This document shows, piece after piece, positions 1,143 through 10,137 of a stretch of 31,107 nt of DNA (position 1 is its first letter; the number at the start of each line of letters is the position of its first letter). Under the pieces are notes generated by a model. That model searched no databases. It was not told where the DNA came from and saw nothing but the letters and a program-made list of their open reading frames with translations. This DNA comes from a virus: the IMG/VR virus record IMGVR_UViG_3300043466_002572, positions 1-31,107 of that record. One strand, written 5' to 3'. A program made the translations under genes and the position numbers.

Positions 1143-1270
1143 CCACCCACTACAACCGCCTATCCAAACGCGCTGCCTGCGGACGTGCTAGCGCCCGAAC
1201 CACCACCGACAAATCCAAGGTCACCTGCATCGCGTGCCGACGCACGGTGGCGTACTTCAAAAACCCATGA
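1139..1270 (+). CDS. Tiny Cys-rich protein, probable zinc-binding
   Basis: A 43-residue protein from ATG 1139 (ATGA overlap) to TGA 1268-1270. It has a cysteine at residue 14 (AACGR) and a CxxC pair in VTCIACRRTVAY, with a nearby histidine at residue 4. This is the outline of a small zinc-binding peptide seen repeatedly in phage accessory operons. It is basic, so nucleic-acid contact is possible, but the function is not known. Confidence 0.6.
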   Translation: MTTHYNRLSKRAACGRASARTTTDKSKVTCIACRRTVAYFKNP

Positions 1271-1812
1271 CCTTCTCCCAATCCGGACAACTCCCACACC
1301 ACCAATACTGCTTCGTCGATGCCTCGTTTATCTCCAGCCGCACCGGGTTTATCCCCTGCGTCTGGTTCGGGCTGGTCTCGATTCCCGGCAGGATGTGGGG
1401 CTGCACCATCATGCTTGAGTGCGGCGCGGTTTACCGGGCGGTGCCGCCTCACGCGCTAGCATTCGATCCACAGCCTGAACTCGACTGGCGCCCAGACCAC
1501 GCCCAACGCTGGGACTGCTACGGTCGGGAGTTCAGCACGATCGAGTACACCTACCTCCGAGGTATGGAAGCCGTAGTGAAATGCTCTGACACATTCAAGT
1601 ACGGCACTTACATCTTTACGGCCGTACCCATCGACGACGGCTTCAGCCGTTATCCCGAGCAAGCCAAGGAATTCATGTTTCTGCGTGGTCACAATGGACG
1701 CCTTATGATCCAACCCACTGACAGAGTCTTGTTTTCTGACCCCTCGTTCGTAGTCACGCCCGAGTGGCCGACGGATCTCAAAACCACCACCGAAATCTAC
1801 AGCTGCGAATGA
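1267..1812 (+). CDS. Conserved phage protein of unknown function (181 aa)
   Basis: Starts at ATG 1267, which overlaps the previous stop as ATGA; an earlier in-frame ATG at 1234 would bury the tiny gene upstream. The protein resembles a family I recall from many phage genomes, with the landmarks CVWFGLVSIPGRMWGC, LECGAVYR, AQRWDCYG, EYTYLRG, YIFTAVP, PEQAKEFMFL and GRLMIQPT in this order. It has no signal peptide or membrane segment. The density of W, C and Y suggests a compact globular fold. The role is unknown despite the conservation. It is the largest product of this operon. Confidence 0.75.
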   Translation: MTFSQSGQLPHHQYCFVDASFISSRTGFIPCVWFGLVSIPGRMWGCTIMLECGAVYRAVPPHALAFDPQPELDWRPDHAQRWDCYGREFSTIEYTYLRGMEAVVKCSDTFKYGTYIFTAVPIDDGFSRYPEQAKEFMFLRGHNGRLMIQPTDRVLFSDPSFVVTPEWPTDLKTTTEIYSCE

Positions 1813-3670: not shown

Positions 3671-3714
3671 CCGCGTTACTGGCGCGGAGAGGGTGGTCGG
3701 ACACGCCGGCCACC
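3671..3714 (-). promoter_or_regulatory. Paired hairpins ahead of the Tad2-like gene
   Basis: The gap between the endolysin stop (3725) and the next start (3651) holds two stems. One is a perfect 5-bp stem, CCGCG/CGCGG (3671-3675 with 3683-3687). The other is a 9-bp stem, 3692-3700 with 3706-3714, with one wobble pair and the loop ACACG. There is no U-run after either. They may set expression by RNA processing or partial termination. Confidence 0.5.
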
Positions 3715-3724
3715 GTGCTCCGAG

Positions 3725-4054
3725 TCACTTCGCTGCCGACACTCGCCTCCAATACGTGCCGCCCGATCGCTTCCACCCGTTCGGGCCATGGTGCCAGATC
3801 AGTGCGAGGTCCCGATCAGTTGCCGGACGGCCGATCCGCTTCGACCAATGGGTCAGATACAAGTCAGCCACCTTCGCTGCGACGACTCGGTTGGTCATCT
3901 CGGACCAGCGGTAATTCCCCTGGACGACTCGGTTCACGTCCTTCACGACACAGGGGCGCACCTGGAGAGCGCCGAGTTCGCCATGACGGCCGCGAGCCTG
4001 ATCGTTCCCGCCGCTCTCAACGGCGATCAGCGCTGCCAATAGTTCGGCTTTCAT
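3725..4054 (-). CDS. Small lysozyme-like endolysin (transglycosylase fold)
   Basis: A 109-residue protein resembling the SLT/lysozyme-like fold. ALIAVESGGN carries the probable catalytic glutamate (residue 13), LGALQVRP sits at the position of the family's GLMQI strand, a helix follows (VVAAKVADLYLTHW), and the end is IWHHGPNGWKR...TYWRRV. The enzyme would cleave peptidoglycan during release. The start at ATG 4054 is chosen because it falls 7 bases after the preceding stop; an upstream ATG would overlap that gene. There is no signal peptide, so it would need a holin to reach the wall. It lies in the accessory operon, about 13 kb from the holin-like genes. Confidence 0.8.
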   Translation of the reverse strand: MKAELLAALIAVESGGNDQARGRHGELGALQVRPCVVKDVNRVVQGNYRWSEMTNRVVAAKVADLYLTHWSKRIGRPATDRDLALIWHHGPNGWKRSGGTYWRRVSAAK

Positions 4055-4061
4055 AATCCGC

Positions 4062-4532
4062 TTACGGTAGCAGTGCCGCTGGCTCAACGGCAAGCGCGAG
4101 CATCTGAGTCATCACCTTGGACTGGCGACGGTCTTCCTCCCATTCCGAGACCTCATGGAGGTTGGACAGAACACGGGCGCGATTGAGATGCTGAATCTGG
4201 GCGATCGACTCATTCATCCCCGGCCGGATCCATGCGGCCAGATCATAGCTGTGCGATTTCTGAAGGTTCTTCAGCCCCGGCCGACAGATGAAACACCGTC
4301 CAGCCAGTAGCTGGTTCCACGAACCAAACCACCAGCCCGGGTTCTCACGCAGTGTGCCCATCTCATCAACCCACAGTTCAACATCGGGACCGTCGTGGCT
4401 ACGGCTGGGGTTGAACACCTCCAGCATCTCCACCTTCAACAGGCTCTGGATCTCTCGGATGTCTTTGCCGACCTTCACCATCGTGGTCACTCGGGCAAAC
4501 GGGTCCACGAACACGCCTTGGACAGTTCTCAT
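4062..4532 (-). CDS. DUF3846-like hypothetical protein
   Basis: A 156-residue protein. Its N-terminal half (MRTVQGVFVDPFARVTTMVK, then IREIQSLLK, then VELWVDEMGTLRENPGW, then GRCFICR) resembles the DUF3846 pattern found in phages and plasmids. There, residues of this kind form a small domain of unknown role ending in 'G-x-x-x-V'. The C-terminal half is helical. ATG 4532 overlaps the previous stop as ATGA. The two cysteines in RCFICR are not enough to claim metal binding. Confidence 0.65.
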   Translation of the reverse strand: MRTVQGVFVDPFARVTTMVKVGKDIREIQSLLKVEMLEVFNPSRSHDGPDVELWVDEMGTLRENPGWWFGSWNQLLAGRCFICRPGLKNLQKSHSYDLAAWIRPGMNESIAQIQHLNRARVLSNLHEVSEWEEDRRQSKVMTQMLALAVEPAALLP

Positions 4533-4768
4533 TCGCCATCCTCCGGCAGGTGGTTCAGGTACGGCGGCTGGTATGTCGAGCAAGCGCACACGACCGCATC
4601 TGGGTAGGCAATCACAGCCTCTTCCAGCGTGTCGAAGTCATCCAACCAGCTACGGCGGCTCTGGCCAGACAGCACGCTGTCACGGTCGTAGGTGCCGTGC
4701 TCGTAGACAGTCCAGCGTTCGCTCTGGTACGTCGCTCCCCGGCCTCGTTCGATCGTTAGGTCACGCAC
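4529..4768 (-). CDS. Conserved small phage protein (79 aa)
   Basis: Starts at GTG 4768 with AGGAGG about 6 bases ahead. The protein has the pattern WTVYEHGTYDRDSVLSGQ, LDDFDTLEEAVIAYPDA and a C-terminal PPYLNHLPED. I recall this pattern from many phages, where it is unannotated. The fold appears small and alpha/beta. It overlaps the upstream gene by 8 bases and the downstream start as ATGA. Function unknown. Confidence 0.7.
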   Translation of the reverse strand: MRDLTIERGRGATYQSERWTVYEHGTYDRDSVLSGQSRRSWLDDFDTLEEAVIAYPDAVVCACSTYQPPYLNHLPEDGE

Positions 4769-5042
4769 GGGACACCTCCTTCATGTTCACCAACACGGCT
4801 CGCACGGCCGCACTGATTCTGATTCCCGGCACAGGCCAACGCGAATCACTCAGTCGCTTACCAACCAGATCCAGAAGATCATCGTAACAGCCCTCCGGAA
4901 TAGCGCTTTCAGCCTCCAACTCAGCCACAGTCAGTGCAGCCAGCGAGATTCTGGTCATCGTGTTCACGCTGGCTCCTTCGACTCGATTCGCCAGACCAGC
5001 CGCAGCGAAGGCGGCATCGTATGCGTTGGGTCCCGTGCTCAC
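4761..5042 (-). CDS. Small hypothetical protein
   Basis: A 93-residue protein beginning at GTG 5042, which has GGAGG about 6 bases ahead and overlaps the upstream stop as GTGA. An internal ATG at 4958 is the alternative start but lacks these signals. The sequence is alanine-rich and helical at first, then contains PEGCYDDLLDLVGKRLSDS. No motif recognised. Confidence 0.6.
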   Translation of the reverse strand: MSTGPNAYDAAFAAAGLANRVEGASVNTMTRISLAALTVAELEAESAIPEGCYDDLLDLVGKRLSDSRWPVPGIRISAAVRAVLVNMKEVSRA

Positions 5043-5509
5043 AGCGCACCTCCCACGAAGAACTCCTCAGGCTTCCCGTTCATCGTTACGCCATCAGCCC
5101 ACGTGAGCCCCCAGCAGCCCTTGGTCGATTGACACACGATCAGCCACTGACCAACAGAGTCGTGCACCACCCGATAGGCTTCAGTCTTCCAGTGGACGGT
5201 CTTCCCGCTCAAAACGGCTTCCTTGATGTCAGACAGGCTCGTCAGGCGTTTGGCACCTCCCCGGGCCGCCTTCAGCACCGCCTCAGCCCGATCAAACAGG
5301 TCCACAGGCATATCGTCCCCGCCGTCCGATTCCATCCACCACTGGAGGATTCCGTCCAACGCAGCCAACAACTCCGGCGCCGCTGCAATGAGTTTGTGGT
5401 TCTGCTCGCCAGTCAGGCGGGGCGTGATGCGTGCGACCTGCTTGCCAGTCGCGTCGTTAATGCGGTCGAACTCAATCGACCATGGTGCAGGGGAATGTAT
5501 GGGTATCAT
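5039..5509 (-). CDS. Two-part hypothetical phage protein
   Basis: A 156-residue protein with two recognisable parts. The first has an N-terminal APWSIEFDRINDATG strand region ending in HKLIAAAPELLAAL, a very common module in small phage proteins. The second (about residues 100-155) carries VLSGKTVHWKTEAYRVVHD, GQWLIVC and GLTWADGVTMNGKPEEFF, a module usually seen as a separate small protein. It therefore looks like a fusion of two accessory modules. The start at ATG 5509 is set by the preceding hairpin leader; earlier in-frame codons would run through it. Function unknown. Confidence 0.65.
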   Translation of the reverse strand: MIPIHSPAPWSIEFDRINDATGKQVARITPRLTGEQNHKLIAAAPELLAALDGILQWWMESDGGDDMPVDLFDRAEAVLKAARGGAKRLTSLSDIKEAVLSGKTVHWKTEAYRVVHDSVGQWLIVCQSTKGCWGLTWADGVTMNGKPEEFFVGGAL

Positions 5510-5526
5510 AGTTTTGGTTCCAGCCG

Positions 5527-5575
5527 TCTGGCCAGAGAAGGCAGCCCCCGCAGAGGCGGCCGTGCTCTGATCAGA
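5527..5575 (-). repeat. Intercistronic hairpin, copy A
   Basis: On the minus strand the region begins with TCTGATCAGA (5575-5566), which contains the stop codon of the upstream gene. A GC-rich stem follows (5541-5562), then TCTGGCCAGA (5536-5527) and CGGCTGGAA before the next start. The layout matches copy B at 6678-6727. No U-run is present. Confidence 0.6.
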
Positions 5576-5894
5576 TGCACATCTGCATCTCAAGCGCATT
5601 CACTGCCGAAGCCATCAGGTCACACACGTAGTCATTCTCCTCTGGATCCAGCACGTTCTGGTAGCCAGCGCACATCCCGATTGAATCAGCACGATGCCAC
5701 CGGCCATCATCGCCACGGAACTCCGAGACGACCCACCAGCAGCCGTGCAGGTTGATGCTGTCCACGATCTCCTGCCGCTCCTCTGGCGTCTCAGGATTGC
5801 CAAAGACATCGAAGTAACTCTCCTGCTCAGGCTCAGCGCGAAGGCGAACGAACCCGTGTCGCTCAAGGTTTCGGAAGGTATCAATGATGCTCAT
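5571..5894 (-). CDS. Conserved small phage protein (107 aa)
   Basis: Starts at ATG 5894 with GGAGG upstream. It shows a pattern familiar from phage accessory regions: NLERHGFVRLRAEPEQESYFDVFG, then VDSINLHGCWWVVSE, then WHRADSIGMCAGY, and a C-terminal NDYVCDLMASAVNAL. The many W, Y and C residues suggest a compact fold. No catalytic motif is evident. The function is unknown. A long frame-shifted reading inside it is only a shadow. Confidence 0.75.
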   Translation of the reverse strand: MSIIDTFRNLERHGFVRLRAEPEQESYFDVFGNPETPEERQEIVDSINLHGCWWVVSEFRGDDGRWHRADSIGMCAGYQNVLDPEENDYVCDLMASAVNALEMQMCI

Positions 5895-5895
5895 A

Positions 5896-6039
5896 TCAAT
5901 CGACCTCCACCAATACGCAGTCCGCCGCTGGGAACGACCGGCAGCCGTCCAAGAACCGGACCAGCAGTCGATCGCCGTCGATACCCATAACCATTCCGGT
6001 CATGCCGTCTGGGCACGTCACGAAGTCGCCCAGACTCAC
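5896..6039 (-). CDS. Short KOW/SH3-like beta protein
   Basis: A 47-residue protein from GTG 6039 (GTGA overlap with the upstream stop) to TGA 5898-5896. Its sequence, GDFVTCPDGMTGMVMGIDGD then LLVRFLDGCRSFPAADCVLVE, looks like a small beta barrel of the KOW/SH3 type, with the D-G turns typical of that fold. Such small proteins often bind nucleic acid or proteins. The role here is unknown. It is followed after one base by the next start. Confidence 0.65.
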   Translation of the reverse strand: MSLGDFVTCPDGMTGMVMGIDGDRLLVRFLDGCRSFPAADCVLVEVD

Positions 6040-6278
6040 AGGCCACCCCCGTTCTGACGTGCGAGGATTGCGCCCTCGTAGTCATGCTCGACAGCCGTCT
6101 GCCGCACTGGATAGGCGATGAACCGCTCACCCTTCCAAGCAGGACCGTAAACGGTCGAGCCTGACACTACGTAGCCAGCCTCACGTAGCTCCTGCTTGTT
6201 CTGGTCCGACAGGACCATGTCCTTCACTCGACCTGCATTCGACAGGTCCACACTGCGCTTGATTTCGTTGGTCGTCAT
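6036..6278 (-). CDS. Small hypothetical protein
   Basis: An 80-residue protein starting at ATG 6278 after a palindrome and the leader AAACGACT, without a ribosome-binding site. It begins with helical, charged sequence (VKDMVLSDQNKQELREAGYV) and continues with a beta-like stretch (VSGSTVYGPAWKGERFIAYP). No family was recognised. Its stop overlaps the next start as GTGA. Confidence 0.6.
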   Translation of the reverse strand: MTTNEIKRSVDLSNAGRVKDMVLSDQNKQELREAGYVVSGSTVYGPAWKGERFIAYPVRQTAVEHDYEGAILARQNGGGL

Positions 6279-6286
6279 AGTCGTTT

Positions 6287-6324
6287 GGATCAGCTGATCC
6301 GCAGAACCCCCTGCACGCAGGAGG
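6287..6324 (-). promoter_or_regulatory. Palindrome plus hairpin ahead of the 6278 gene
   Basis: GGATCAGCTGATCC (6287-6300) is a perfect 14-base palindrome. Next to it, CCCCCTGC (6307-6314) pairs with GCAGGAGG (6317-6324) with one wobble pair. Both lie in the 55-base gap between the membrane-peptide stop and the next start, and the RNA would be strongly folded. Confidence 0.5.
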
Positions 6325-6333
6325 CTCGCCGGG

Positions 6334-6438
6334 TCATCCGATAGGTCCGATCACTGCATCCACCAGCAGCCACACGATCAGGAACACGACGCCACTGCCA
6401 AGGATCAGGACGGCGGCATCACGCATCAGGCGCTTCAC
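6334..6438 (-). CDS. Tiny single-pass membrane protein (34 aa)
   Basis: Starts at GTG 6438 with AGGAGGTGAGC immediately ahead, a near-perfect ribosome-binding site, and overlaps the previous stop as GTGA. It has a short basic N-terminus (VKRLMRD) followed by one long hydrophobic segment, LILGSGVVFLIVWLLVDAVI, so it is an inner-membrane peptide. The strong translation signals in such a small frame support it as a gene. Function unknown. Confidence 0.65.
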   Translation of the reverse strand: MKRLMRDAAVLILGSGVVFLIVWLLVDAVIGPIG

Positions 6439-6659
6439 AGGCTCACCTCCTGCGCACTGAACACGACGGCCTCACCTTCGACTTCATACGACAGATAACC
6501 GGAGGCCAGTGCCTCCGCGATCGCGTTTGGAAGGCCGTATCCTTCGCGGAGGATCCGGACGGCCGCTGGTGCATCAGTCGGGAACATCGACTGCGCGAAA
6601 CGGATGATTCCGGGGGTGTAGCACCAATCGGTGCTGCTGAGTCGGTAGGTGTTTTTCAT
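6435..6659 (-). CDS. Small hypothetical phage protein
   Basis: A 74-residue protein from ATG 6659, with GGAG about 8 bases ahead in the hairpin leader. It has the pattern RILREGYGLPNAIAEALASGYLSY and then EGEAVVF, which resembles a recurring unannotated phage family. The N-terminus contains W and C with no obvious motif. Its end overlaps the membrane-peptide gene. Confidence 0.65.
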   Translation of the reverse strand: MKNTYRLSSTDWCYTPGIIRFAQSMFPTDAPAAVRILREGYGLPNAIAEALASGYLSYEVEGEAVVFSAQEVSL

Positions 6660-6677
6660 GGTTGTTTCTCCAGCCGT

Positions 6678-6727
6678 TCTGGCCGGACCAGAAGCCGCCC
6701 CGAAGGACGGCCTCGGATCTGGTCAGA
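6678..6727 (-). repeat. Intercistronic hairpin, copy B
   Basis: Same layout as copy A at 5527-5575. TCTGACCAGA (6727-6718, minus strand) contains the upstream stop codon. It is followed by the stem GCCGUCC-UUCG-GGGCGGC (6710-6693), then TCTGG...GGCCAGA and CGGCTGGAG before the next start. The UUCG loop makes it very stable. No U-run. Confidence 0.65.
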
Positions 6728-6944
6728 GGATCTCAGCCCGGACGTCATCGTGATAGCTGGTGATGCTTCGCGCTGCCGCCGTCATCTGTTCCAGCGCCTC
6801 GGCGTAAGTCTCGCAGTCTTCGACGAACTCCGCCCAGTCGTTGCTGTCGTAGCATTCGATGAATACCTGCCAGCCGTGCCCTTGCTCGTAGTTTTCGGAG
6901 GCGATCGCCTTCAGTTTGGCGATCCAATCTTGCTTGTTGCTCAT
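6723..6944 (-). CDS. Small hypothetical protein, first gene of the leftward operon
   Basis: A 73-residue acidic protein starting at ATG 6944. It has the pattern DWIAKLKAIASENYEQGHGWQ, VFIECYDSNDWAEFV and a helical end (EALEQMTAAARSI), close to a family common in phage accessory operons and of unknown function. The leader is A/C-rich (AACAACAAAAACAAC) with no ribosome-binding site. Its stop codon lies inside hairpin copy B. Confidence 0.7.
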   Translation of the reverse strand: MSNKQDWIAKLKAIASENYEQGHGWQVFIECYDSNDWAEFVEDCETYAEALEQMTAAARSITSYHDDVRAEIL

Positions 6945-6959
6945 GTTGTTTTTGTTGTT

Positions 6960-7026
6960 AGAACTGCGACCGAGCCGTCAAGATCCCATAAAGCGCTTTC
7001 CGTGTCAACACCTCATTCGCAGTTCT
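6960..7026 (-). promoter_or_regulatory. Putative promoter/operator of the leftward operon
   Basis: A consensus -35 box TTGACA lies on the minus strand at 7008-7003; the matching -10 region is weak (GATCTT at 6985-6980). Perfect 10-base inverted arms flank it: AGAACTGCGA at 6960-6969 and TCGCAGTTCT at 7017-7026. One arm would lie near the transcription start and the other above the -35, as expected for paired operator half-sites. Confidence 0.5.
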
Positions 7027-7085
7027 TCCAAAAAACCTCGGTAAACATTGGTTGAAATCGTGGTCGAAAAGTGTATGGCTGCGTC

Positions 7086-7427
7086 ATGCCGTTGATGGAA
7101 AAGTCGTACCCAAACATGGACGGGAAGAGCCTGTCGAGGCGGGCGGGAAGGAGTGAGGTGGTTGTGAGTCTGGCAAGATCGACTCTACCCGGCCAGATGG
7201 TTCTCCGGCTGCGACGCACTGCGGAAGACATGGGTCAGATCGCTCAGGACCCAGAGGCACCTGCCAACGATCGGATCTCCGCCGCCAAGGCCATGGTCAC
7301 CCTCCAAGACCAACTCATGGACCTGCTCGCAATCCCACGACGACCTGCCGCCGCTGGTAAAGGAAAAGCCTCCGCCCCACTCCTTGATGTATCACCGGTC
7401 GGACCTCCGCCTGACCTCGGCGCCTGA
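7086..7427 (+). CDS. Orphan hypothetical protein with helical C-terminal part
   Basis: A 113-residue basic protein and the only rightward gene between two leftward operons. The conserved-looking core is LRRTAEDMGQIAQDPEAPANDRISAAKAMVTLQDQLMDLL. Its 'DPEAPxxxRxxAAxALL' pattern is seen in small helical phage proteins, including some called small terminase subunits or DNA-binding helpers. The tail is proline- and alanine-rich. Start options are GTG 7071, ATG 7086, ATG 7095 and ATG 7116, and none has a clear ribosome-binding site. The large terminase lies 15 kb away, so a packaging role is only a guess. Confidence 0.55.
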   Translation: MPLMEKSYPNMDGKSLSRRAGRSEVVVSLARSTLPGQMVLRLRRTAEDMGQIAQDPEAPANDRISAAKAMVTLQDQLMDLLAIPRRPAAAGKGKASAPLLDVSPVGPPPDLGA

Positions 7428-7490
7428 TCCGGGTCTCACCTGACCTGCGGGTCCCATAATGGATTCCTTAGACGGCCGCACCGTCCCCAC

Positions 7491-7509
7491 GGGGTGGGGT
7501 GGGTGGGGG
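7491..7509 (+). other. G-quadruplex motif
   Basis: The bases GGGGTGGGGTGGGTGGGGG hold four runs of three or more G separated by single T bases. That is the strongest class of parallel G-quadruplex pattern. It is on the plus strand, 64 bases after the orphan gene and inside the candidate origin. Confidence 0.75.
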
Positions 7510-7824
7510 CCGCGTTTGCAGCGATGTCATAACGGGACCCCCTCTCCAATACCTAGGCCATTTTCCAAACCGACATAGAACGCTTTATCAGAGGGGTAGT
7601 ACAGGGGTGCCAGTGAGGGTATGCTCTGACCCTCACCCTGCGTTTTCGCCCTGATTCTTAGGCTTTTTTGTTCTACTGGTAGGGGGGTGTGAGGGTAAAG
7701 TACAACTTAATGGTTCCGCATTATCCAGTGGCCGTCCGCCGGCTCCGCCAGTCTCCGCCGCCGCCCCGCCGTCAATTTTAACGCGACCCTCGCCCCCCCC
7801 TACTTTTGTCATGACAAGCGTTCC

Positions 7825-7845
7825 AAAAAGCCTTAGGACCAAGGC
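7825..7845 (-). terminator. Probable terminator of the primase operon
   Basis: Read on the minus strand, GCCTT-GGTCCT-AAGGC (7845-7830) forms a 5-bp stem followed by TTTTT (7829-7825). It lies about 70 bases after the primase stop. The stem is short, so termination may be partial. Confidence 0.5.
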
Positions 7846-7917
7846 AAAAACGGAGGGTGAGGGGGGAGGCTTACTTTCACTGGATTTCAAAATGACCCTC
7901 ACCCTGTTTTCCGTTTT

Positions 7918-10137
7918 TCAGGCCCATACGGAGGCGTTCGATCCAGTTGGCGGAGTGATCGACCAGCGGACCTTGCCGTTCGATTTCGTCTTCTTGATGC
8001 GCTCTGAATCCTGCTCATGGAGCCGTGCGAGGTAGACTCCGCAGGCGGTATTGAAGCGGAAGAGGCGGTCGGCCTCGCGGGAATACTTGGAGTCACGTAA
8101 AGCGGTTTCCAGGTCCGAGGCGGTGCCTTTCCAGGTGAGGAACTCGTTCTCGAAGATCACGGTGTCGATAAGGCCGATGAGTTGGTGCTCTGGCGACAGC
8201 TGCATGAGTTCTTCGAGGATGGCCGGGTGCTGGTAGGCCTTGAGGCCGCAGCGGGGTTCGACGAGGTGGTCAGGCACGGTGAGGCCGTCGAGGTAGTGGG
8301 CGAAGGCGGAGAGTTCGGTGTCGAGGATGTCCTTGAGGATGGCGATTTCTTCGCCGGGCCAGGGGAGGGTTTGGCGGACGCAGCGGAGGATGATGAGCTT
8401 GTCCATCAGGGATGGGTCGAGGGGAGGGAGGACCTGGAGGTTCTCGGGCTCGTCGTTGAGGGAGATGGACATGGCCCAGATGGGGCGGAGGGTGATGGCT
8501 TGGCGGTTCTTGGGGTGACAGGACTGGTTCTGGGCGAAGAGCATGGATTTGATGTTGGAACCGAGGGTGCGCCGGGAGTGGATATCGCGGCCGGGGGCCT
8601 CGTCCTCGATGCAGAGGTGTTCGGAGGTGAAAAGGTCGCCGTTGAAGTCGGTGGCGCCAGACATGTAACGGTATGGCTTGGCGATGCGGCCGCCGAGGAG
8701 CCGGGTGATGACGGCGGACTGGACGAAGGACTTGCCGCACGCGGCGGGGCCGACGAGGGCGAGCGCCTGCGATGATCGCCAGGTGCCGGTCAGGACGGCT
8801 TGGCGACGGAGGGAGAGCCAGTAGATGAGGCGCCAGTACTGGTCGTCGTTCTGGTCAAGGAGGTTATGGAGGTAGGTCTGGAGGCGGGAACAGTCGCCGG
8901 GGGTAGCCGGGAGCGGTACGACGGAGCGGGTTACGAGGATGGTGCCGTAGAGGCCGGCGCGGTGACCTGCGAGTGGGCCGGCGTATTCGATCAGGGTATC
9001 GCGGGTGCGGCGGAGGAGTTCGCGGTCCACGTCGGAGGCGCCGGTTTGGTCCTTGGTGGGGGAGACGCCGGACTCGGTGAAGAGGGTCCGGACGCGCTCG
9101 CCGTTGATCTGGGCGTAATCGCCCCAGGCGTTGCGGGTCCACCACTGGCCGGAGTTCGGGTCGTAATGGAGGTCGTCGAGCGGGTTTTGAGATGCTGGCA
9201 CCGGTTGAGCGGGAACCGGGCGTGGGAGATCGCCAGCAGCGTCGAGGAGGCCCTGGATGGAGATGTCAGGAGGGATGGGGTCAGCGAGGTCCCAGCCGTC
9301 GGGGAGGGAGGACGGGAGGGTGACGACGCGGGCGGCTGGCAGGCGGGCTTTCAGGTAGACCATGGCGTCCCGGCCGGGTTTGTCGTGGTCGGGCCACAGG
9401 ATGATCGGGGTGGCGCGTGTCAGCAGGGGATCGAGGACCGCACGGCCGACACGCTTGGAGCCGCCCTGCCAGGTGATGACGACGTGGGACGGGAAGAGCT
9501 TGGAAGCGGCGACAGCGGTTTTCTCGCCCTCTACGATCAGGACGGGGTCGTTCGGGCGCCGGGTGAGGAGGTGGAGGTTAAAGAGGGGGACCGGGTCGGG
9601 GTTGGGCCAGCCCTTCCAGCGCCAGTGGCGGGGGTTGAGCGGGTCGGGAAGCTGGTTTTCGGGCGGGAGGAGCCGGAGGGGACGGACGTCCTTGGAGCCG
9701 TCGGGCAGGTCGAACCGGACGACGTAGGCATGGATAGTTCCGTCCGGGTTGTGGTAGGGCCAGGCGGCGGTGCCGTAGCGGTAGGGCTGGGAGGCGTCGT
9801 TGCGGTGGCCGTGCTTGAGGGGATCGAACGAGCGCTGGGTGGGCTGGTAATCGTCGCGGATGCCGAGGAATTGGCGAGCCCAGGCGGCTGCCCGGCCGAT
9901 GGGGAGTGTCTGGTTCTGGGCGACGAGGGCCAGGAGATCGCCACCCTCACCAGCTGCGTGGTCGTACCAGAGGCCCTGCTTGGGGCCTTGGAGTTCGACG
10001 CACAGAGAGTCGCCGGCGTCGCCGAAGACGTTGCCGACGATCCACTGGGTGCCGATGCGGCGGCCAGCGGGGAGGAGTTGCGTGCAGAGTTCTTCAACGC
10101 GGACGGCGAGTGCGTCCGCGAGTTCGTGGAGTTCCAT
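7918..10137 (-). CDS. TOPRIM primase fused to a superfamily 3-like helicase
   Basis: A 739-residue replication protein. The N-terminal part has GLWYDHAAGEGGDLLALV (about 55-73), as in phage primases before the TOPRIM domain. The TOPRIM domain shows VEGEKTA (202-208) with the catalytic glutamate, and PDHDKPG (249-255) with the paired aspartates. After a proline-rich link come a Walker A VGPAACGKS (462-470) and an acidic Walker B LCIEDE (508-513), as in D5-type helicases. It would prime and unwind DNA at the fork. No N-terminal zinc cysteine cluster is visible. It is last in a four-gene operon. The start at ATG 10137 lacks a clear ribosome-binding site. Confidence 0.88.
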   Translation of the reverse strand: MELHELADALAVRVEELCTQLLPAGRRIGTQWIVGNVFGDAGDSLCVELQGPKQGLWYDHAAGEGGDLLALVAQNQTLPIGRAAAWARQFLGIRDDYQPTQRSFDPLKHGHRNDASQPYRYGTAAWPYHNPDGTIHAYVVRFDLPDGSKDVRPLRLLPPENQLPDPLNPRHWRWKGWPNPDPVPLFNLHLLTRRPNDPVLIVEGEKTAVAASKLFPSHVVITWQGGSKRVGRAVLDPLLTRATPIILWPDHDKPGRDAMVYLKARLPAARVVTLPSSLPDGWDLADPIPPDISIQGLLDAAGDLPRPVPAQPVPASQNPLDDLHYDPNSGQWWTRNAWGDYAQINGERVRTLFTESGVSPTKDQTGASDVDRELLRRTRDTLIEYAGPLAGHRAGLYGTILVTRSVVPLPATPGDCSRLQTYLHNLLDQNDDQYWRLIYWLSLRRQAVLTGTWRSSQALALVGPAACGKSFVQSAVITRLLGGRIAKPYRYMSGATDFNGDLFTSEHLCIEDEAPGRDIHSRRTLGSNIKSMLFAQNQSCHPKNRQAITLRPIWAMSISLNDEPENLQVLPPLDPSLMDKLIILRCVRQTLPWPGEEIAILKDILDTELSAFAHYLDGLTVPDHLVEPRCGLKAYQHPAILEELMQLSPEHQLIGLIDTVIFENEFLTWKGTASDLETALRDSKYSREADRLFRFNTACGVYLARLHEQDSERIKKTKSNGKVRWSITPPTGSNASVWA

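Follow-up and report, generated by a model that had tools for sequence, protein, structure and literature searches.

A G-quadruplex motif as the variable core of a conserved two-box element, a candidate replication origin, beside a phage primase-helicase gene

Does a G-quadruplex motif between two convergent phage genes reflect no more than GC-rich DNA, or does it belong to a functional site? Functional quadruplexes are few in bacteria and phages, and motifs are usually judged by pattern alone. The stretch of DNA analyzed here (31,107 nt, an IMG/VR virus record, called the window below) represents part of the genome of an uncultured phage; its genes include those for a large terminase, SSB, an HU-like protein, a helicase and a primase-helicase. 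The motif GGGGTGGGGTGGGTGGGGG was located at 7491–7509 on the + strand of the window. Its layout, GGGG-T-GGGG-T-GGG-T-GGGGG, comprises four G-runs and three single-T loops and fits the intramolecular G-quadruplex pattern (four runs of at least 3 G, loops of 1–7 nt), which confirms the very strong motif described in the initial annotation. The tract has the top G4Hunter score of the window (2.32 over 25 nt). Among 200 dinucleotide shuffles of the window, a motif with single-base loops only appeared in 2, and a maximum score as high as that of the motif in 17; a motif search allowing up to 3 mismatches returned 1 match, against 0.02 expected. A chance origin in DNA of 59% GC is therefore unlikely but not impossible, and it is the comparison with relatives that carries the case. 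Three further quadruplex motifs on the + strand (8409–8428, 9301–9320, and 9585–9606) lie on the template strand of the primase gene.

The motif lies inside a 490-bp gap that separates the ends of the convergent primase-helicase (− strand) and orphan (+ strand) genes. Relatives were gathered by primase (32 loci) and terminase (80 loci), their near-complete contigs being ~46–50 kb long, and the order primase, element, orphan was found in every relative spanning the element. The primase-helicase gene (7918–10137, − strand) points at the element, and 360 nt separate its end from box A, the first conserved block there. Its product matches PHROG 239 (DNA primase/helicase, E = 8e-16) as well as DUF6371 and DUF5906 in Pfam, and TOPRIM-like and Walker A motifs (EGEKTA, WPDHDKPGR, GPAACGKS) were recognized by eye. 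The coding strand of this gene is unusually C-rich (GC skew about −0.3), and the skew is alike in the relatives checked. In all relatives spanning the element it adjoins this replication gene, in some cases with small inserted genes in between: one or two such genes separate primase and element in about half of the relatives (e.g., L002:3362–4560, and others in L004, L005, L007, L011, L016, and L018). The inserted genes encode about 130–170 aa, fall into at least two unrelated-looking families and have no Pfam match, for which reason a classification as homing endonucleases was dropped. A coding role of the gap was rejected: the interior of the element changes by 1-nt indels, and the flank alignment includes indels not divisible by 3, so that ORF 7633–7902 of the window is probably not a gene.

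On the other side of the gap, the orphan gene (7071–7427, + strand, 118 aa) is convergent with the primase gene. Its protein aligned with that of 19 relatives at 45–86% identity and is 42% identical to that of the distant relative G030; it is therefore a real gene, and the motif was rightly placed after it in the initial annotation. The protein is small and helical with a basic N-terminus, and its AlphaFold model is all-alpha at moderate confidence (pLDDT 69). Pfam, PDB and fold searches yielded no confident family and no PDB structure match at E ≤ 0.001; the phage database contained no relative of the orphan, and matched the large terminase only at about 20% identity. The orphan could be a divergent small terminase or a partner of an origin.

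Comparison of the element in 24 sequences (23 aligned and the distant G030) revealed that the motif is not isolated: by alignment, it is the variable core of a conserved element. Box A (7534–7557, − strand, CCTAGGTATTGGAGAGGGGGTCCC; in the alignment CCTAGGTATTGGRGAGGGGGTCCC) is 83–100% identical to the relatives, compared with 60–92% at 4-fold-degenerate sites of the primase gene, and its part GAGGGGGTTCC is retained even in G030. Box C (7457–7470, − strand, TAAGGAATCCATTA; consensus WAAGGWATCYNTT) shows the dyad AAGG-N4-CCTT in many relatives. Boxes A and C each occur in one copy in the window and in all six contigs read whole, which sets them apart from most regulatory motifs. Between them lies the interior (7471–7533), which carries the G-run cluster and evolves fast at constant length: it is only 52–87% identical to that of the window across relatives, while its length, about six turns of B-DNA, differs by no more than 1 nt among the 24 sequences (63–64 nt, or 62–63 nt with slightly shifted box ends). 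The distance from box C to the orphan stop, in contrast, ranges from 33 to 181 nt. The boxes are thus more conserved than the 4-fold-degenerate primase sites and the interior less so; against L001, for example, identity is 92% at the primase sites, 92% in box A, and 54% in the interior. A third block within the interior, box B (7479–7490, − strand, GTGGGGACGGTG; consensus GTGGGGACGGTC), is lost in L018/L023 and in G030. G030 keeps both outer boxes, the interior length and the G-run tract (C-rich there). On the primase side a conserved non-coding flank follows (7558–7727, − strand) with iteron-like TACCCC/GGGGTA and GGGTGAGGGT repeats. TACCCC was counted 42 times in 22 such regions, against 1.0 expected (about 40-fold); both repeats are enriched but variably spaced.

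The initial annotation proposed conservation in related genomes as a check on the motif, and a mixed picture was obtained. The exact motif recurs in L025 and L120, and variants are found in most other relatives. A strict G3+N1-7 motif is present in 16 of 23 elements, and in all 23 if loops of up to 12 nt are allowed. In the closest relative, L001, whose primase is 99% identical, the interior has been replaced and the G-runs are on the other strand, so that disruption in a close relative, which the initial annotation named as a refutation, does literally occur; the G-rich strand is likewise the opposite one in L005, L009, and L020. What is lost is the exact sequence; clustered G-runs are a property that almost all relatives retain. 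The maximum G4Hunter score over 20 nt averages 2.66, compared with 1.55 for shuffles of the same bases, and the clustering exceeded that of composition shuffles (p < 0.05) in 21 of 24 sequences, which are related and hence not independent. In G030, whose interior is very C-rich, it did not exceed that of shuffles of this interior (p 0.37).

Alternative structures were also considered. In the window, 7473–7490 pairs with 7494–7512 to form an imperfect hairpin (7473–7512) whose 3′ arm is the G-tract, with a z-score of −2.8; in most relatives the z-score is near 0 or positive, and G030 lacks the hairpin. An outer inverted repeat (7449–7540; arms GGGTCCCATAATG at 7449–7461 and CATAACGGGACCC at 7528–7540) encloses the motif, and its 3′ arm is missing in many relatives. 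A hairpin or cruciform was therefore rejected as a conserved feature, the energies in relatives being those of shuffles. With hairpins outside the window no more stable than in shuffles, any structural property that is conserved would be G-run clustering. Folding of the quadruplex in the cell and any function of it are putative, and the phages may tolerate the G-core without needing it.

An indirect sign that the motif affects polymerases came from two nearly identical relatives. L010 and L025, from different metagenomes, differ at 4 positions over 4,900 nt, all of them within the motif; three of the four are a loop T read as G, resulting in a run of 17 G. At L010:10563–10706 a run of 17 C stands where L025 has CCCCCACCCACCCCACCCC. 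Since real variation so confined is improbable, and such differences are expected of sequencing error, the 17-C run is likely a sequencing artefact of the quadruplex. Raised incorporation of C opposite a quadruplex template has been described in sequencing instruments and attributed to stalling (PMC13202175). The suggestion in the initial annotation that the motif could stall polymerases thereby gains indirect support, from an error signature confined to the motif and pointing to trouble for a polymerase in vitro.

What could such an element do? Transcription converges on it from both sides, so it is no promoter of either neighbor. As a single-copy, non-promoter, bipartite site with fixed spacing beside a replication gene, it is best read as a cis-acting site, most likely all or part of a replication origin, a reading that we put at about an even chance. 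The placing of the motif within a candidate origin in the initial annotation is thus the best-supported reading, to which the single-copy boxes, the TACCCC repeats, the skew minimum and the adjoining primase-helicase gene all point. In all six whole contigs the cumulative GC-skew minimum lies no more than about 2.1 kb from the element; it agrees with an origin but is confounded, being produced largely by the C-rich coding strand of the primase gene. The constant interior length, the G-run clustering, the retention of the element in G030 and the error signature of L010 and L025 also favor this reading. Counting against it are hairpins no more stable than shuffles in most relatives, a strict quadruplex motif in only 16 of 23 elements and the shuffle-like clustering of G030. 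In the mechanism that we infer by analogy with pRN1 and the P4 alpha protein, the TOPRIM/SF3-like primase-helicase, or a partner protein, would bind both boxes as well as the TACCCC/GGGTGAGGGT repeats. The boxes are separated by about six helical turns, and the complex of protein and DNA would melt or strain the interior, and the G-run core would fold into a quadruplex on one strand, keeping the strands apart or holding a polymerase for primer laying. The HU-like protein (2505–2807, − strand; PF00216, E = 6e-15), conserved family-wide, could help to bend the DNA of the element. A fuller version, in which a two-box origin surrounds a strand-indifferent quadruplex core selected for G-run clustering and length, not for sequence, and at the same time forms a crossover point, is rather doubtful; if true, the crossover point would join the replication backbone to an exchangeable gene cassette.

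Such a cassette emerged from the comparison of similarities along the genomes. Over 231 pairs, how similar two sequences are on the primase side of the element gave no indication of their similarity in the interior (rho −0.06) or beyond it on the orphan side (rho −0.10). Backbone genes (capsid, helicase, nuclease, primase, g2985, and others) are mutually linked across this region (rho about 0.2–0.8), while interior, right flank, orphan and SLT gene show near-zero rho with the backbone, the exceptions being orphan–g2985 (0.44) and orphan–HU (0.23). A cassette (interior to SLT gene, about 3.7–7.5 kb) is therefore exchanged on a stable backbone. In the window it covers about 3700–7490 and holds the SLT transglycosylase gene, small genes and the orphan gene. 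Change-points fall around box A in several pairs, at +24 to +26 in pairs sharing the left side and at about −30 to −41 in those sharing the right, and from these positions box A is one border of the cassette. A programmed or structure-driven recombination site, in which quadruplex-induced breaks or single strands act at the cassette border as at pilE in Neisseria, would account for the clustered change-points and for the unlinked flanks, and has parallels in the similar motif of pilE and in the breakpoint enrichment of HSV-1. However, box A is the only long stretch common to all relatives, and homologous recombination would occur there anyway; the quadruplex is 35–65 nt away, and no recombinase gene was identified. 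The exchange can be explained by ordinary homologous recombination within the 60 nt that all share, with no part for the quadruplex, and we regard a dedicated recombination site as very unlikely.

The main rival reading is a packaging initiation site (pac or, less likely, cos), at which the orphan, as a divergent small terminase, would bind the boxes with their fixed spacing. Single-copy, paired boxes at constant spacing would suit such a site, as would the small, helical orphan with its basic N-terminus; the orphan has one very weak match to a small-terminase PHROG (E = 0.13), and no small-terminase gene was recognized beside the large terminase. Moreover, relatives' contigs begin at scattered positions, and the ends of three of the six whole contigs overlap by 127 nt, as in a permuted or circular genome; contig G029 begins inside box C. 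Against this, Pfam, PDB and fold searches gave no small-terminase match for the orphan, the correlation between interior and orphan protein is weak (rho 0.26), and whole contigs run through the element, with the N-terminal half of the primase linked to g2985 (rho 0.68). As contigs pass through it and the flanking backbone genes are linked across it, the element is not a fixed genome end, and with the contig starts also scattered, a cos end was rejected. Packaging is, on balance, rather unlikely. The initial annotation had also suggested that the motif blocks transcription between operons. The flanking convergent genes, the strong quadruplex potential and the hairpin of the window would agree with an insulator or terminator that acts through a quadruplex, hairpin or R-loop block. 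In 21 sequences scanned on both strands, however, the element contained no intrinsic terminator (GC stem and T-run), and in 9 of these a terminator lies upstream of the element on the primase strand, in the window a terminator-like hairpin of the primase transcript at 7830–7845 (− strand); three intrinsic-terminator-like sites, against 1.5 in shuffles, are weak alone. Terminators rarely hold long invariant blocks or a constant spacing, and flips of the G-strand would switch which transcript carries the G-rich RNA. Transcriptional blocking is weakened by these results and seems distinctly improbable.

Two further explanations were considered. The interior could be a by-product of GC-rich intergenic drift with slippage, with function residing only in the boxes, as suggested by its fast evolution (54% identity to L001, against 92% at the primase 4-fold sites) and by homopolymer-like variants. 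Its constant length argues against drift, as does G-run clustering beyond same-composition shuffles in 21 of 24 sequences that survives strand flips, and we consider this explanation fairly unlikely. A structured non-coding RNA would fit conserved blocks in a non-coding gap. Nevertheless, RNAalifold gave an energy of −9.9 kcal/mol with a covariation term of +0.23 and one compensatory pair, Rfam returned no match, and the hairpin is lost in G030; a structured RNA was therefore rejected as extremely improbable.

Among known systems, the candidate origin of the crenarchaeal plasmid pRN1 lies just 3′ of a primase-helicase gene and combines a poorly conserved stem-loop of ~100 nt with well conserved flanks; its core is required for replication, as shown genetically, and a pRN1-like origin has also been proposed for Bordetella phage BIP-1 (PMC4234260). 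The element studied here resembles it in its position directly 3′ of the primase-helicase gene, its single copy, and its structure-prone, poorly conserved core of about 60–100 nt between strongly conserved flanks. A conserved stem-loop core of the pRN1 type was not found, as hairpin energies in relatives are like those of shuffles: in pRN1 the stem-loop is conserved, whereas here the hairpin is not and G-run clustering is kept. Furthermore, pRN1 has an archaeo-eukaryotic primase and a function shown genetically, while the primase here is TOPRIM-looking. The ori/alpha protein system of phage P4 also relies on a TOPRIM-type primase with an SF3-like helicase (PMC4234260). The likeness extends to the union of both domains in one protein and to repeats near the replication gene, but the P4 iterons and crr differ in sequence from the repeats of the window, and no winged helix was identified in the window's primase-helicase.

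Lambdoid phages have conserved boundary sequences at module junctions. Here, too, a short conserved sequence stands where unrelated modules reassort, yet at this junction lies a bipartite element of fixed length that has a G-rich core and adjoins a replication gene. The pilE quadruplex of Neisseria gonorrhoeae (GGGTGGGTTGGGTGGG; PMC10094033) is similar in that loops of one or two T separate its G-runs and that genes are exchanged close by, but it precedes a promoter and depends on an sRNA, while the window's element lies in a convergent gap, its exact motif is not conserved and its G-strand can flip. Recombination breakpoints of HSV-1 are enriched for quadruplexes (PMC6524338). A direct precedent for a quadruplex at a phage origin was not found in the literature. 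The element offers a directly testable case of quadruplex potential as part of a phage origin: beside a replication gene, a G-run core survives sequence turnover and strand flips at constant length, and recurrent module exchange is pinned to a defined stretch of 60 nt.

Some observations were made on the phage family at large. The product of window 1234–1812 (+ strand), conserved in relatives, matches PHROG 3704 (annotated ferredoxin, host takeover; E = 2.8e-19). The sole terminase match in the genome collection, L133 (80% identity over 297 aa), is on a 7.2-kb contig binned in the MAG Candidatus Aquidulcis frankliniae, which is a possible hint to the host or a case of mis-binning. The IMG/VR contig G011 (L181–L185, 92,531 bases) was rejected as a dimer or provirus, as it consists of two phage genomes, a family member of 46.9 kb and a second, distantly related phage. 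They are joined via 1.16-kb direct repeats that are 96% alike, and the contig is either a chimeric assembly or a co-integrate.
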